A stretch of 42,540 nt of DNA, taken from an uncultured Flavobacteriaceae bacterium. GTDB taxonomy: Bacteria > Bacteroidota > Bacteroidia > Flavobacteriales > Flavobacteriaceae. Position numbers and translations under genes: made by a program. The stretch lies in the NCBI GenBank assembly GCA_913048215.1, contig CAJWXC010000004.1:1-42540 (forward strand). The letters are read 5' to 3'. Under the pieces are notes generated by a model. The model had not been told where the DNA came from. It made no database searches and saw only the letters and a list, made by a program, of their open reading frames with translations. This document shows positions 12,362-19,319 of the stretch, in pieces; within the stretch, counting starts at the first letter, position 1; each line of letters begins with the position of its first letter.

Positions 12362-14800
12362 TCAGAGTTTAAACTGCAACAATCCATAAAAGGTTCTTGG
12401 CTGGCTTGGAATAATACCCGGTCCCGGATATCCTGTAGCTCTTCTTGTAAAATAACTAGTATTGAGTAGGTTGTTAATACCAGATTCAATTTTAAATTTC
12501 TTGTAAGTATATGACAAAGAAAAATCTAGTATATCATAGGACGGAATTTCACCTATCACACCACTTTGACTTGTGAAATCTCTTGGAGAATTTGTGGCGT
12601 CAGTGAATTGTTTTGTTAGATAAGTATATTGAACACTGCTTAAAAAATCACCATAACCAAAACTAATACCCGTTTTAATATTCGCTTTTGGAATAAATTC
12701 TACTTGCTTACCTTTTACGTTGTTTTCTTGAGATTTGGTGTATTGGCTCTCTGTAAAAGCAACATTTAAAAACGTATTTAATCTGAAATTTTCGTTTGAT
12801 GAAAAAGTCTCCCAAATATTCCAATCAACAAAACCCTCAAAACCATAGGTCACCGCATCACCAATATTTGCTCTAAAACGCTCGTCTTGAATATCACTAA
12901 CCGCTCTTAAAACTACCCCTAGCCTGTCTTGATAGCTAAGAAAGAAAACACCAAAATCATACCTAAGAAAATTTTTAAACGTTCCGCGAGCACCTAAATC
13001 AAAGGTATATCCTTGCTCATCGGTGATATTAGGATCTATTGTTAATGAAGGGTTTGTAATTCTTATATCACTAAAGGTGACAGACCTATAGTTTTGACTC
13101 AAATTTGTATATAATTCTGTGGCGTATGATGCCTTATAACTAGCTCCAACACCCAACAAAACAAAACTGCGATCAAAACTACGATTATCTGCAATAGTTT
13201 GATTTAAAATAGCATTGCCAGCTAAATCTAGAACAATATTTTTATACTCCCCTTGGCTTTGTGTTTTTATAATATCTACTCTTACACCTGGGGTTACAGT
13301 AAGTTTTTGAGAAAGTTTAAAAATATGCTCAGCAAATAAGGCAACATTTAAGTTAGGAAATGTAAAATTACTTTGTCTTGTATACTCAGGAAACAAAGTG
13401 TCTGCAAAATTAAAATCAGCGTCATTTGAGGTACTTCCAGGTCCTTGACGTTCCGTGTTGTTTGACTGATAGTATTTTGCGCCTACTAGTAGGGCTTGCT
13501 CTGTTTTGAATAATTGATACCTTGTCAAAAAACGAGCCTCTGCACCCCAGTTTCTAAAATTACCCACAATTAAATCTCTAGGAGCTTGCAGATCATCTAC
13601 TTGAGACACCCTGTTTTCTCTAAAACCTACAGATTTTCTAGAGGCATCAAGTGCAAATATATTAACACTAAAATCTGTATTTGGTGATATGGCATGCTCT
13701 AAAGCAAGGGAATATAATTTCCAATCTACATCAAACCAATTTCGCGATCGGTTGCTGAAGTTTGGTTGTTGTTCAAATTGAGTGTCTGTTAAACCACCTG
13801 GCTGTTGGGCTAGATAATCTAAATAACTAAACTCAAACGATACTTTTGTTTTTTCAGAAAAACTGTAATCTATATGGGCATATGCATTGTAAGAATCAAA
13901 CTGTGAATTTGGTCTAAAACCAGTACCAGTTTTGTAATTAAAATAGCTGTAATAACCAACCTTACCTGATGTACCACTTAGGCTATTAAAACTAGTAAAC
14001 AAATTATTACTACCTACAGATTGCCTTGAAGTCAGATTTACTTTTTTAGAAGGATCAGGCATTTTCAATTTAAAATTGATCAGCCCTCCAAATTGAGTTC
14101 CATACTGTAATGATGCTGCACCACGAACAATTTCTATTTGCTCAATAGCCTCGGCAGGTGGTGTATAATAACTCTCGGGGTATCCTAAAACATCTGCTGA
14201 GATATCATATCCGTTTTGACGAGTATTAAAAGAGGAGGTTCTATTTGGATCAAGGCCTCTACCACCCACATTAAGCTGTAATCCTGCATCATTATTGTCG
14301 TAAATATTTAAACCTACTACTTGGCCATAAACTTGTCTAGCGGTTCCACTAGCTAGATTTGCCGTAAGATTATCTAAGACAACAACTTCACTCTTCTTCC
14401 CAGCATAAATTGCTGTTCCTTCTATATCTCTTAAATTTCTGAGGGCAAAAATTCTCTCTTTACGCTTTGTGATAACAACCTGATTGAGGGTTTGTTCTAA
14501 AACAGGGAGCTCGATAGTCAGTGAGGTATTTTTTGTTATGTCAATGGTGGTTTGTACAACTTCATATTCAAAAGAAAAAGCAACAAATGTGTAGTTACCA
14601 GGGGGAACGTTTTCAAAGGTAAAAGTGCCTAGGCTATCTGTCACTGCTGTGCTGGATAGGGTTGTGTTATACACCTCTGTGTTTTGTATAGGGGCTTTAG
14701 TGTCTTTAGAAATTACAACACCCGTAATTGTATACTGCCCATACAACACGCAATGAAACACTAAAAATAATAAACCTAAATAATAGTTGATATGCTTCAT
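12362..14800 (-). CDS. TonB-dependent receptor with N-terminal carboxypeptidase-regulatory-like domain (FecA-like)
   Basis: 812 aa; signal peptide, 'ITGVVISKDTKAPIQNTEVYN' beta-sandwich, plug 'GLNIYDNNDAGLQLNVGGRGLDPNRTSSFNTRQNGYDIS...AIEQIEIVRGAASLQYGTQFGGLINF', beta barrel ending in aromatic 'FYGLLQFKL'. Confidence 0.92.
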   Translation of the reverse strand: MKHINYYLGLLFLVFHCVLYGQYTITGVVISKDTKAPIQNTEVYNTTLSSTAVTDSLGTFTFENVPPGNYTFVAFSFEYEVVQTTIDITKNTSLTIELPVLEQTLNQVVITKRKERIFALRNLRDIEGTAIYAGKKSEVVVLDNLTANLASGTARQVYGQVVGLNIYDNNDAGLQLNVGGRGLDPNRTSSFNTRQNGYDISADVLGYPESYYTPPAEAIEQIEIVRGAASLQYGTQFGGLINFKLKMPDPSKKVNLTSRQSVGSNNLFTSFNSLSGTSGKVGYYSYFNYKTGTGFRPNSQFDSYNAYAHIDYSFSEKTKVSFEFSYLDYLAQQPGGLTDTQFEQQPNFSNRSRNWFDVDWKLYSLALEHAISPNTDFSVNIFALDASRKSVGFRENRVSQVDDLQAPRDLIVGNFRNWGAEARFLTRYQLFKTEQALLVGAKYYQSNNTERQGPGSTSNDADFNFADTLFPEYTRQSNFTFPNLNVALFAEHIFKLSQKLTVTPGVRVDIIKTQSQGEYKNIVLDLAGNAILNQTIADNRSFDRSFVLLGVGASYKASYATELYTNLSQNYRSVTFSDIRITNPSLTIDPNITDEQGYTFDLGARGTFKNFLRYDFGVFFLSYQDRLGVVLRAVSDIQDERFRANIGDAVTYGFEGFVDWNIWETFSSNENFRLNTFLNVAFTESQYTKSQENNVKGKQVEFIPKANIKTGISFGYGDFLSSVQYTYLTKQFTDATNSPRDFTSQSGVIGEIPSYDILDFSLSYTYKKFKIESGINNLLNTSYFTRRATGYPGPGIIPSQPRTFYGLLQFKL

Positions 14801-14803
14801 ATA

Positions 14804-16168
14804 CTATATACCCTCAATGGTATCATTAAATTCTAGAATCCAATTTTTATGGGTAAAGGTATCCTCTACTTCAAGAAGGTTTATTTCTGGATTTATAAAG
14901 GGTTGGCTCAATCTTCCATTAAGCGCTACAAAACTCTCTACATGTACAGCCACATTTTGGTGTCCCTTTGACCTGTAATAATTCCCAAGATAATGAGCGT
15001 ACTCCAAAATAAAATCAGGCTGTGTACTCATTTGTTTTTCTTGAAAAGTGGTTAAAAAATCACTGTTATCTACAGCGAATTGACTACCTGTTTTGGTGTT
15101 TTTTACAATAAATTGAGCATACCCTGCTTTTTCCATTAACATAACACGCCAAGAAAAACGGTAGCCTTGTTCTGTCCAAAAAAGTTCTTTGGGATACATG
15201 ATATATCTCCATGGCAAAAGTAGCTGAACTATCATAAAAACACCCACCACATAAGAAGCTATTTTAAAACCATTAGCATTTGTTGTGGTATTAATATTGA
15301 TACTCCTATACAATTGCAGCTTTTTTAAAATCAAAGAAAAGAACTTAAGTATCCTCCCATGTAGAGTAGCATCAAAAAAAATGAGTGTACTAATTATCAT
15401 TATGTATGGAAACATCCCAATAGGGAAAAGTATACGCGTAAGCACATGAAAAACAACTACAAGAACAAAAGCAAAAGATCTTGAGGGTTTCCAAAGCAAT
15501 AAAAAGGGTATGGACAAATCATAAAGTGCACCTCCCCAGCTAAATGCATAATGTATCCAATTTTGCTGCAAAAGATCACCTAGTAAAGGAATATCGTATT
15601 TTGATGGCAACCAAATCTTTAAGGGCATGGCACTTACTAGCCAATCACTGTTGAGCTTGGCTAGCCCCGCGTACAAGTAAACAATACAAAGAAGAAGCTT
15701 AATACTATTTATGGTCCAGGCAGAAATATTCTTTGACACTTCACACCTTCCTCTTAGGGCATCCAAGGAATAGTAACAATTTGCAGGTAAAAAAATTAAT
15801 AGAAAACTCAAACAACTAATAAAGTAGTAGTGGTTTAAGTATGTTGTTTTATCTAGAAGCTCTATGTAGGTAAAACTTAGAAAAAATAAAAGTATTGCTA
15901 CCCTGTATCTGTAGCCAATGGCAACAAAGATTGCTGAAACACCACAAATAAAAAAAAGAAGATAAACAAATTGGCCTGGGTTTGGAAGCCAATAAAAACC
16001 ATAATAAGAAAAAGAAAAACTAGGTTCAATGTACAAGGTATCTATCCAGCCTAAACTCCAAAAACGTATAATGCTTACAAGCATCATAAAACCAAACAAT
16101 ATACGAAATACGGCCAGTGGCGTAGCACTAGTTTGTTTTGTGATGTATGTATGGTAGTTTGTATGCAT
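14804..16168 (-). CDS. HTTM domain protein, vitamin K-dependent gamma-carboxylase-like
   Basis: 454 aa multi-TM protein; 'LYAGLAKLNSDWL', 'FPIGMFPYIMI', and C-terminal 'WTEQGYRFSWRVMLMEKAGYAQFIVKN...DNSDFLTTFQEKQM...YAHYLGNYY...ALNGRLSQPFI' match the bacterial gamma-carboxylase-like family as recalled. Confidence 0.85.
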   Translation of the reverse strand: MHTNYHTYITKQTSATPLAVFRILFGFMMLVSIIRFWSLGWIDTLYIEPSFSFSYYGFYWLPNPGQFVYLLFFICGVSAIFVAIGYRYRVAILLFFLSFTYIELLDKTTYLNHYYFISCLSFLLIFLPANCYYSLDALRGRCEVSKNISAWTINSIKLLLCIVYLYAGLAKLNSDWLVSAMPLKIWLPSKYDIPLLGDLLQQNWIHYAFSWGGALYDLSIPFLLLWKPSRSFAFVLVVVFHVLTRILFPIGMFPYIMIISTLIFFDATLHGRILKFFSLILKKLQLYRSININTTTNANGFKIASYVVGVFMIVQLLLPWRYIMYPKELFWTEQGYRFSWRVMLMEKAGYAQFIVKNTKTGSQFAVDNSDFLTTFQEKQMSTQPDFILEYAHYLGNYYRSKGHQNVAVHVESFVALNGRLSQPFINPEINLLEVEDTFTHKNWILEFNDTIEGI

Positions 16169-17289
16169 TAATCACCATCTGCATCAACATAATTCACATC
16201 AATGCTTAGTGCTTGTAACATATCTACTTTCATTAAAATCACGTTACGTTGTAATTCATCGTATGCCTCTAGCATTTTTGTATTATCATTGGTAATTTGT
16301 TGTATGAAATTATCATTTAATAATTCAATTTTTGAGAAAGCAACTTGAAATTGATTGTTAATCAGTGTTTGTAGACTAGCATCATTTTTTTCAGAACCTA
16401 ATGCTTCTAGGTATGAATTTAGACTAAATCCGTTTGATTGATACTCACTAGAGAAGCCCTTGCCGTTGAAGAAATCAACGGTAGCATTTAATGCTTGAGT
16501 TAATAGTAATTTTGAAACAGTCTGGTTGTAATACGATTCTACATTTTGAGGTAGCGGGCTGCCAGAGAAAACACCTGCGGGTATTCCTACCTTCCCAGCA
16601 CGAAGAGCCTTTTCATAATAAAACAAAAATGCGTTTACAGTCTGGTCTACAGATCCAGAGGCAGAAGAGCTTATGTTTGTAATGTATGACGCTCTATACC
16701 CATTGTTCCAATCAGAAAACACTTCACTGGTAAGATTTTGCATGGTAGTAACCAAATCCAATAGATACATTTTGTAGCTAGAGGCATTTGGACCTGTAGT
16801 GAATTTTTCAAGAAGCTCTTGGTCTGTACCCAAACCATACAGCAAATAATCTAAGGCTGAAAAACCTTGAGCGTCTATGGTAGATGGCAACTCAAGATTC
16901 CAAGAGTTGGCTGAAATGTAACCTTCAATCTCTTGCGAGTTTGTTGGATAGACATTTAACCTATTTCTATAGTTTAGTGTCTGAGCCCGACCAATTTCAA
17001 ACATAGAGATTTTCTGAAATGCTATGTTGGCATCCAACCAAGAGTTTCTGATACCATCCAAGGAAATTGCAGAAGGTGATTGTGTAAAATCTTCTGATGC
17101 TACTTCAAGAGCGGTAAGCTTTTGTGAAAAATTGGCGTACCCTGGGATGATAATATTATCTGCCCAGTTAACCAGTAATGCACTACGATCATAAGAGTCT
17201 GTAGGTTGAATATCTGAGGTGTCGTCAACACCGCAAGCACTCACAAAGGCTAGAAGAATGATTAAAATAAAAGTAATATTTTTTTTCAT
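16168..17289 (-). CDS. Imelysin-like (IrpA/peptidase M75 fold) lipoprotein
   Basis: 373 aa; lipobox 'LLAFVSAC', 'IQKISMFEIGRAQTLNYRNRLNVYPTNSQEIEGYI', and 'GFSALDYLLYGLG' at the position of the imelysin GxHxxE segment. Confidence 0.85.
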   Translation of the reverse strand: MKKNITFILIILLAFVSACGVDDTSDIQPTDSYDRSALLVNWADNIIIPGYANFSQKLTALEVASEDFTQSPSAISLDGIRNSWLDANIAFQKISMFEIGRAQTLNYRNRLNVYPTNSQEIEGYISANSWNLELPSTIDAQGFSALDYLLYGLGTDQELLEKFTTGPNASSYKMYLLDLVTTMQNLTSEVFSDWNNGYRASYITNISSSASGSVDQTVNAFLFYYEKALRAGKVGIPAGVFSGSPLPQNVESYYNQTVSKLLLTQALNATVDFFNGKGFSSEYQSNGFSLNSYLEALGSEKNDASLQTLINNQFQVAFSKIELLNDNFIQQITNDNTKMLEAYDELQRNVILMKVDMLQALSIDVNYVDADGD

Positions 17290-17369: not shown

Positions 17370-18602
17370 TTAATTAGAACTAGCAGCTTGAGCTACCGTA
17401 AAATCAAATTTTGATGCAATTTGTTCAGAGATAGTATCCAGTGTTGCTGGAGTAACATCCCATAATCCATTTGGTCCATCACTCATAAGCTCTGAAATAA
17501 AACTACCCACCTCAGATCTAGTGAAAATAGATGTTCCTGTTTGAGTATCTCTTGTAAAACGTAGGCTTGTTAAAAAGCCGTACCCTTCAGACAAATCATG
17601 AAATGCTGCACCAAAATTACCAGATTCAATAGATAGCTTTCCTGTTTGCAGATAGTAAACAGCACGAATAGCTATCACCTGTGATATTTTTTCTTGTAAT
17701 ATGGCTGCTTGAGTATTTCTTACATCGTAGTCTTTACCAACTATTGCCGCACGACCCAGTTTAAAAGCATCAAAGATTTCTTGAGCAATACCCTCAAAAT
17801 CAGAATCACTATTGGTTTTTCCTACATATTTATTTAAAAAACTATCGTTCTGGCCAATACTTGGTAGAGGATCTGCTTGATTTTCTTGAGCAACACCCCC
17901 AAATAAATACCCATAAGCTTCATCCCATTTATGCTCCATGGTGGTGTAGTTATTATCTCCATCTGTTATATCATTGTCATTGTTAGAGACATTATCACCA
18001 GCATCTAGAACAGATGGGCTTAAATAATTATTTAAAATTTGGTCTGTAACAAAGGCTCCGATCAGCCCTTTTGCAAATGCTTGGTTGTATTCTAAACCAT
18101 TTGCTCCTATATAACGTGTGTCAGAGCCATCTGCAATTTGACCTGCTACTCCAGGTGTTGCTACAGTATTCCAGTTTGGAAAGACCTCCGAGGTCTGTAT
18201 CCCTATGTAAGAGTCAAACATGGACTTAATTTCTGCTGCCTCTGTTGCATTGGCTGAAAAATAATCAGAAGATGCGGCTGTCTTGCTTCGCACACTCTTA
18301 CCGGATGCATTTAATTCTGGATCAGAAAAATCAGCTGCACCTTCTTGATGATCAAACATAGCTAAAAGTGAACTTTGAGTTTGGGTATCGTTGTTTTTAA
18401 GAGCAGATATTATTTCTTCAGCCATGAAAATTCGAGTTGTTTGACCTGTAAACTTGACTGTAGACTCGTTATTTCTTAAAAAAGCATAGTTCTGTGGAGC
18501 TATAATGGGGTCTGGCCCGCAGCACAATCCAGAATCATCATTGGTATCACAAGAGGATAAAAAAATGGAGATAAAACAAGATAGTAATAATATTTTTTTC
18601 AT
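17370..18602 (-). CDS. DUF4856 domain lipoprotein
   Basis: 410 aa; lipobox 'ISIFLSSC'; 'NYAFLRNNESTVKFTGQTTRIFMAEEIISAL...MFDHQEGAADFSDPELNASGKSVRSKTAAS...NDNDITDGDNNYTTMEHKWDEAYGYLFG' recalled as DUF4856. Confidence 0.8.
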   Translation of the reverse strand: MKKILLLSCFISIFLSSCDTNDDSGLCCGPDPIIAPQNYAFLRNNESTVKFTGQTTRIFMAEEIISALKNNDTQTQSSLLAMFDHQEGAADFSDPELNASGKSVRSKTAASSDYFSANATEAAEIKSMFDSYIGIQTSEVFPNWNTVATPGVAGQIADGSDTRYIGANGLEYNQAFAKGLIGAFVTDQILNNYLSPSVLDAGDNVSNNDNDITDGDNNYTTMEHKWDEAYGYLFGGVAQENQADPLPSIGQNDSFLNKYVGKTNSDSDFEGIAQEIFDAFKLGRAAIVGKDYDVRNTQAAILQEKISQVIAIRAVYYLQTGKLSIESGNFGAAFHDLSEGYGFLTSLRFTRDTQTGTSIFTRSEVGSFISELMSDGPNGLWDVTPATLDTISEQIASKFDFTVAQAASSN

Positions 18603-18611
18603 TTTATTTTT

Positions 18612-18630
18612 ATTTAGATTAATTATAAAT
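18612..18630. promoter_or_regulatory. Operator-like dyad, site 1
   Basis: ATTTAGATTAATTATAAAT, 10 nt upstream of the DUF4856 ATG; matches sites 2 and 3. Confidence 0.6.
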
Positions 18631-18644
18631 AATGATTACGCATG

Positions 18645-18675
18645 CAAAAATATAAACGATTATTAGTTTACGCAA
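18645..18675 (-). promoter_or_regulatory. Bacteroidota-type promoter for the DUF4856-imelysin-HTTM-TonB operon
   Basis: Minus strand TTG (18675-18673), N20, TATTTTTG (18652-18645), matching the TTG / TAnnTTTG -33/-7 arrangement known for Bacteroidota. Confidence 0.6.
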
Positions 18676-18679
18676 GTTT

Positions 18680-18698
18680 ATTTAGACTAAATTTAAAT
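18680..18698. promoter_or_regulatory. Operator-like dyad, site 2
   Basis: ATTTAGACTAAATTTAAAT, just upstream of the -33 element. Confidence 0.6.
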
Positions 18699-18779
18699 AA
18701 GGAGTTGTTAAAATTTTTATGTGTAGTGTTTACAGTACCTAACAAGACAAATAAAAATAAAAATAATGTGCTAATTTAC

Positions 18780-19253
18780 TTATTCAATGGTGGTGAGCAT
18801 CTCTTTTTGATAAATTATCCTAGATAATTGTGCCCATTGCAATAAGATCTCAGTGTCTTTTTCAGACAAATTTCCATGCAACCATGTGTAGGAATCTAAG
18901 GGCATCTCCCCTTGTTCTACATATTCAATAAGTTCTTCAAGTTTATGGTCTTTTTTTCTGGCACTATACGTATCCCAAGTAGAGACGTTAAAATGTCTTT
19001 TCCCGTCTGCAATATGCTCTTCGAGCCAAAAATTTATTGGAGCTATATTATTGTACCAAGGATAATTTGTTTGGTCACTGTGGCAATCATAACAATTGTT
19101 TTTAAAAATAGATGCAATTTCTTTGGTAGGTACTATTTCTTGTTCAAACAACGCAACAGACTGATAACCATCGGTGTTTTTTTCAGGTTTTATAAATTGT
19201 ATAACAACAAGTACCCCTAGTAGCGCTATTAAGAAGTATTTTAAATATTTCAT
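18780..19253 (-). CDS. Haem-binding domain (cytochrome c-like) membrane-anchored protein
   Basis: 157 aa; N-terminal TM 'YFLIALLGVLVVIQFI', one CXXCH motif in 'IFKNNCYDCHSDQTNYPWYNNIAPINFWLEEHIADGKRHFNVSTW'. Confidence 0.85.
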   Translation of the reverse strand: MKYLKYFLIALLGVLVVIQFIKPEKNTDGYQSVALFEQEIVPTKEIASIFKNNCYDCHSDQTNYPWYNNIAPINFWLEEHIADGKRHFNVSTWDTYSARKKDHKLEELIEYVEQGEMPLDSYTWLHGNLSEKDTEILLQWAQLSRIIYQKEMLTTIE

Positions 19254-19284
19254 TTCGATTAATTTAAATGTAAAAATAAATATT

Positions 19285-19303
19285 ATTTAGAATAATTCTA
19301 AGC
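19285..19303. promoter_or_regulatory. Operator-like dyad, site 3
   Basis: ATTTAGAATAATTCTAAGC containing the perfect palindrome TTAGAAT-a-ATTCTAA, 31 nt upstream of the haem-binding-protein ATG. Confidence 0.6.
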
Positions 19304-19319
19304 AATGGGAGAAATAGTT

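Follow-up and report, generated by a model that had tools for sequence, protein, structure and literature searches.

Which regulator reads the three near-identical, AT-rich dyads that lie around the promoter of a TonB-dependent receptor operon and ahead of the neighboring haem-binding-domain gene in an uncultured Flavobacteriaceae bacterium? We analyzed the 42,540-nucleotide stretch of DNA that carries them (the window) together with the rest of the genome and with related genomes. Fur is the switch that shuts off iron-uptake genes when cell iron suffices. We conclude that the sites are very probably Fur operators, through which Fe(II)-Fur would repress both transcription units in iron-replete cells. 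Site conservation and geometry, the Fur-family gene, and the association of the motif with Fur and with iron/haem genes come from the present analysis; Fur binding, repression and the iron response are carried over from a relative, Riemerella.

Coordinates of the boxes, promoter elements and genes in the window
Feature	Position	Strand	Sequence	Evidence or remarks
Site 1	18610..18632	.	TTATTTAGATTAATTATAAATAA	Fur-type box, promoter-proximal; matrix score 29.1 of 32.5
Site 2	18678..18700	.	TTATTTAGACTAAATTTAAATAA	Fur-type box, promoter-distal; matrix score 30.0
Site 3	19283..19305	.	TTATTTAGAATAATTCTAAGCAA	Fur-type box; matrix score 16.7
-33 element, operon promoter	18673..18675	-	TTG	sequence; aligned in relatives
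-7 element, operon promoter	18645..18652	-	TATTTTTG, consensus TAnnTTTG	sequence; relatives' promoters
-7-like element, haem-binding gene	19271..19278	-	TATTTTTA	weak match; 27 nt from box start
DUF4856 lipoprotein-like gene, operon gene 1	17370..18602	-		PF16148, E 4e-139
Imelysin / peptidase M75-like gene	16168..17289	-		PF09375; weak match to PDB 4ecg
HTTM / vitamin K-dependent gamma-carboxylase-like (VKGC) membrane protein	14804..16168	-		PF05090, PF22777
TonB-dependent receptor, last in four-gene unit	12362..14800	-		PF00593, PF07715
Haem-binding-domain gene, upstream of operon	18780..19253	-		PF14376, E 2e-45

All three sites are imperfect palindromes resembling TTATTTAGAnTnAnTCTAAATAA, with an odd-centered 7-1-7 geometry (TTAGAAT-n-ATTCTAA) like that of classical Fur-family boxes. 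The three words listed in the preliminary description were confirmed at the positions it gave. The repeated dyads it described are real, but the conserved unit is 23 bp by symmetry extension, rather than the 19 bp it gave. The 19-bp words are identical to one another at 14-16 of 19 bases, and within each extended 23-mer 9 of 11 positions pair with its own reverse complement. The pattern TTATTTAGAnTAAwTnTAA has exactly three exact matches in the whole window and none in 3 Mb of Markov sequence of the window's composition. With up to three mismatches it matches nine times in the window (2.6 expected), and nine or more matches occurred in 0 of 100 shuffles. This pattern was derived from the three sites themselves, so an independent matrix and promoter conservation provide the stronger proof. 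When the window was scored with a matrix trained on the promoters of other genomes, only these three sites passed the threshold of 6 bits; they are the only good copies that the window holds. The core TTAGAATnATTCTAA alone, scanned over the window with 3 mismatches, performed no better than chance; the flanks are therefore needed.

Read along the minus strand, the operon promoter comprises site 2 (18700-18678), a gap of 2 nt, TTG, 20 nt, TATTTTTG, a gap of 12 nt, and site 1 (18632-18610), which is located in the expected 5' untranslated leader of the DUF4856 operon. TTG-N20-TATTTTTG is a promoter form known for Bacteroidota. That sites 1 and 2 flank such a promoter had been claimed from the sequence, and it holds when the coordinates are re-read on the minus strand.

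The operon downstream is itself strongly conserved, with the order DUF4856-imelysin-HTTM/VKGC-TonB receptor kept in 74 of 80 loci (from named genomes). The structure weakly matched by the imelysin-like gene (4ecg) is putative iron-regulated protein A, and the TonB-dependent receptor is siderophore-receptor-like, with a match below the cut-off. For the DUF4856 protein (window 17370-18602) a confident, all-helical AlphaFold model was obtained (pLDDT 88.8, 22 sequences), for which comparison with solved structures gave no match at E <= 0.001. No mention of DUF4856 was found in the literature searched. We considered and rejected the idea that DUF4856 is a hidden imelysin (profile comparison reached 88%, but over just 57 columns, and the model matched no solved fold).

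We identified at least two boxes in 75 of 81 DUF4856 promoters (those of the 80 loci and the window's own) and at least one box in 80 of them, compared with 0.1 and 3.7, respectively, in Markov controls; three Cyclobacteriaceae loci have a single box. Spacing was measured in the 72 promoters that have two boxes with TAnnTTTG between them. Counted from where the upstream box begins, the -7 element is 48 nt away in 67 of these, 47 nt in three and 49 nt in two; the downstream box follows 12 to 25 nt past the first base of the -7 element. The boxes themselves are 60 to 73 nt apart in the main group, with clusters at 61, 67-68 and 71-73 nt. These distances show no fixed helical phase, and a phase-dependent loop is therefore unsupported. 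The downstream box has asymmetric arms: the right one, AGTCTAAATAA, hardly varies (G at position 14 in 96%), whereas the left one drifts. In one relative (G027, L248) two boxes occur directly before the DUF4856 operon. In another (G029, L235) a two-box promoter precedes a porin-like gene (a weak PF13609 match, below the cut-off) instead of a DUF4856 gene.

Site 3 concerns the second transcription unit. It was correctly placed 31 nt upstream of the haem-binding gene, the ATG of which is at 19253. The site ends 4 nt before TATTTTTA and is therefore positioned over the core promoter of this gene; relatives have TAnnTTTG at about the equivalent place. Equivalents of site 3 were identified in several other loci (L192/L014, L016, L017, L018, L019 and L041). 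Such a box is not universal, as many relatives have the haem-binding gene closely behind another gene and without a box of its own. The haem-binding gene takes the fifth position of the two-box operon in G027 and G012, where it follows the TonB receptor after 8-20 nt. Thus, whether through its own box or through the fifth operon position, the haem-binding gene appears to be under the same control. On comparison of these loci, the two arrangements are the best support for one regulator serving both units.

The window's genome (1.82 Mb, 83% complete) was scanned with a sequence-only model built from the boxes of other genomes, and the best distinct places with E up to 0.1 were retained. The six best are the three window sites, a site between hemA and an AraC-type gene followed by a ferrochelatase-like (hemH) gene (C3:18179), a site between a cytochrome c gene and a SPOR-domain gene (C2:52944), and a site ahead of feoAB (C3:40144). 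A weaker match is at a sufA/iscA-like gene. Gene names outside the window come partly from reading translations; Pfam confirms FeoB, AraC, SPOR and cytochrome c at the matching places in G029. The training set comprises orthologs of sites 1 and 2, so that only site 3 and the places elsewhere count as independent. The scan had been proposed in the preliminary description as a check for clustering at iron and haem genes, and that is where the matches mostly fall. Nor is the motif at background frequency: with up to two mismatches, the palindromic pattern gave 11 matches in the window's genome compared with 3 for the reversed control. In G029, where the reversed control gave zero matches, the neighbors include AraC at hemA, FeoB, two TonB receptors, SPOR/cytochrome c and a succinate dehydrogenase cytochrome-like gene.

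A box of this kind is established in Riemerella anatipestifer, in which the Fur box is ATTTAGAATTATTCTAAAT with a 19-bp core, and purified Fur shifted promoters with predicted boxes in EMSA (PMC5609570). Boxes in this organism are found near the start codons of iron-acquisition genes (PMC5609570, PMC10986502). In strain CH-1, Fe2+ was required for Fur to bind the rhuB promoter box ATTTAGAATTATCCTAAAT (PMC10986502), and mutation of the rhuH Fur box increased rhuH transcription (PMC11967795). The orthologous operon, RAYM_09779-09794, is tabulated among genes whose expression rises under iron restriction and on loss of fur, at modest ratios in the deletion with iron (1.36-1.93); Table 5 of that paper gives no box for RAYM_09794, and some of the tabulated boxes fit the consensus poorly (PMC5609570). 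The sites described here agree with ATTTAGAATTATTCTAAAT in sequence, and, as expected of a flavobacterial Fur box, they overlap or adjoin the promoter, close to the start codons of iron genes. A second box is more than simple repression needs, and we count this against the Fur reading.

One FUR-family gene was identified in the window's genome (C7:4470, 84 bits). The protein aligns to solved Fur proteins and scores below the NCBIfam equivalog cut-offs. No Fur-type box was found in the fur promoter of this genome. The gene (L184:1105-1563, G000 C7) is located between relA/spoT-like and purA-like genes; by eye, the protein is without the CxxC pair of many Fur proteins and has ILDNGEVIEF instead. 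Among 59 relatives, motif matches relative to the reversed control were 613 to 87 in the 50 genomes with both Fur and DtxR, 72 to 21 in the six with Fur and without detected DtxR (one of them, G040, with no motif excess), and 3 to 4 in the three without Fur, a small class that has neither protein and includes a member of 0.3 Mb. In a sample spanning the order, no match was found in four family f9 genomes lacking Fur, and the small genomes of family f16 were near control. Exceptions are G076, G101, G103 and G108, incomplete MAGs without detected Fur that show some motif excess.

Two DtxR-family genes are also present (C3:32770 and C55:10812), one of them divergent from a TonB receptor gene, and the TTTAG...CTAAA look is common to DtxR-family boxes and to our sites, so that a DtxR/MntR-family protein might read the boxes instead of Fur. 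However, in 27 of the 31 dtxR-type promoters examined the dyad is a different one, AATTTTTAG-N6-CTAAAAATT (TTTAG-N6-CTAAA), which the DtxR proteins presumably read at their own promoters. Sites 1, 2 and 3 score 29.1, 30.0 and 16.7 with the Fur-type matrix but 2.5, 8.5 and -6.9 with the dtxR-type matrix, whereas the promoter of dtxR1 scores -14.6 and 27.5, respectively; no Fur-type box was found in the dtxR promoters of the window's genome. The gene dtxR1 is ahead of a Mn/Zn-type ABC transporter, and MntR is therefore suggested. The motif, in addition, does not appear to depend on DtxR, being enriched in 4 of 5 relatives at least 86% complete in which Fur was found and DtxR was undetected. Given the disagreement with the dtxR-type dyad and this distribution, DtxR/MntR boxes are a disfavored reading of the sites, and we consider it very unlikely that such a protein reads them in place of Fur. 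The preliminary description had proposed one metal sensor, of Fur or DtxR type, for both units; a single sensor is supported, and the ambiguity is narrowed to Fur by the box match, the genome matches, the co-occurrence and the separate dtxR dyad. The AATTTTTAG-N6-CTAAAAATT dyad is common to the dtxR/mntR-type promoters of these flavobacteria (G000:C3:31000-34500, L185; loci L124-L153). Between the second DtxR-family gene and the divergent TonB-dependent receptor-like gene (G000:C55, L186) is TTAGATTAACCTAA, which may be a third kind of metal box.

Another iron-related regulator could read the boxes or share them with Fur, for example a MerR-like activator such as MliR of Bizionia argentinensis. 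Deletion of mliR lowered imelysin-like, FeoB-associated, AraC-domain, cytochrome c and TonB receptor genes (PMC9478572), a set that overlaps the neighbors of the box, and the upstream box is fixed beside the -33 element, a place where an activator could act. The deletion also lowered Mn/Zn ABC transporter genes, however, and its authors left direct and indirect effects undecided; the part of the report available gives no MliR binding site (PMC9478572). Such Mn/Zn ABC genes here follow dtxR1, the promoter of which bears the other dyad, and the box equals the Fur-bound box of Riemerella. We regard a role for such a regulator as highly improbable. It is also unlikely, if somewhat less so, that the upstream box lets Fur or an MliR-like partner touch RNA polymerase, so that the operon is both iron-repressed and actively turned on under iron shortage. 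We do not read the rigid 48-nt spacing as proof of polymerase contact, because it is largely inherited from the fixed -33/-7 spacing; in the plainer reading, the promoter itself sets 23 of the 25 nt from the upstream box to the -7 element. There is next to no likelihood that the sites are chance palindromes without function. The intergenic DNA is AT-rich (19% GC) and short TTA/TAA words are frequent in it, but only about 8e-5 sites are expected in the two intergenic stretches. The boxes are conserved across genera, and with a score of 15 of 18 or better there are 149 of them in the 20 kb upstream of the orthologs, compared with 38 in the other 702 kb of these loci.

With Fur as the regulator, the predicted mechanism is steric repression at both promoters. 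With Fe(II) abundant, Fur dimers loaded with metal would occupy the 23-bp dyads. Two of them would flank the operon promoter, one directly against the -33 element (site 2) and one at the start of the leader (site 1), and would exclude RNA polymerase from it. The haem-binding gene would have a single dimer, on site 3, covering the promoter region immediately ahead of the -7-like element. Under iron shortage, Fur would release, allowing production of the TonB receptor, imelysin, DUF4856, HTTM/VKGC and haem-binding proteins, which could gather iron or haem.

This interpretation assigns a probable iron-dependent switch to the strongly conserved, little-studied DUF4856-imelysin-HTTM/VKGC-TonB receptor operon of marine flavobacteria, and it leaves existing knowledge of Fur unchanged. 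The analysis supplies a matrix for calling Fur targets in Flavobacteriales and a simple rule, in which 7 rather than 6 bases between TTAG and CTAA separate Fur-type from DtxR/MntR-type boxes in this order. Both this type of element and control of the operon by iron and Fur are already known from a relative. What is new relative to the literature searched, which yielded little on other flavobacterial Fur boxes, is the sites themselves and their conserved two-box layout.

Compared with known systems, the sites are closest to the Riemerella Fur box, with which they share the ATTTAGAATTATTCTAAAT core; the Fur/iron table for that organism includes the orthologous TonB receptor-VKGC-imelysin-hypothetical operon. 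The differences are that two boxes flank the operon promoter here and a third is at the haem-binding gene, whereas the Riemerella table gives none for the operon, and that site 3 deviates in its last arm (TCTAAGCAA). The DtxR/MntR-type boxes derived here also have TTTAG and CTAAA half-sites and are AT-rich, but are one base shorter between the half-sites, with an even center and other flanks. The PerR box is TTATAATnATTATAA; it has the 7-1-7 geometry, and its half-sites differ from ours by one letter each (G here in place of T at the fourth base), and only one FUR-family gene was found in the window's genome. With the classical Fur box of Escherichia coli (GATAATGATAATCATTATC; 7-1-7 TGATAATnATTATCA) the sites share an odd-centered inverted repeat with an AAT-n-ATT middle and, by prediction, the character of an iron-responsive repressor site, but the half-site here is TTAGAAT instead of TGATAAT, with TTA/TAA flanks.
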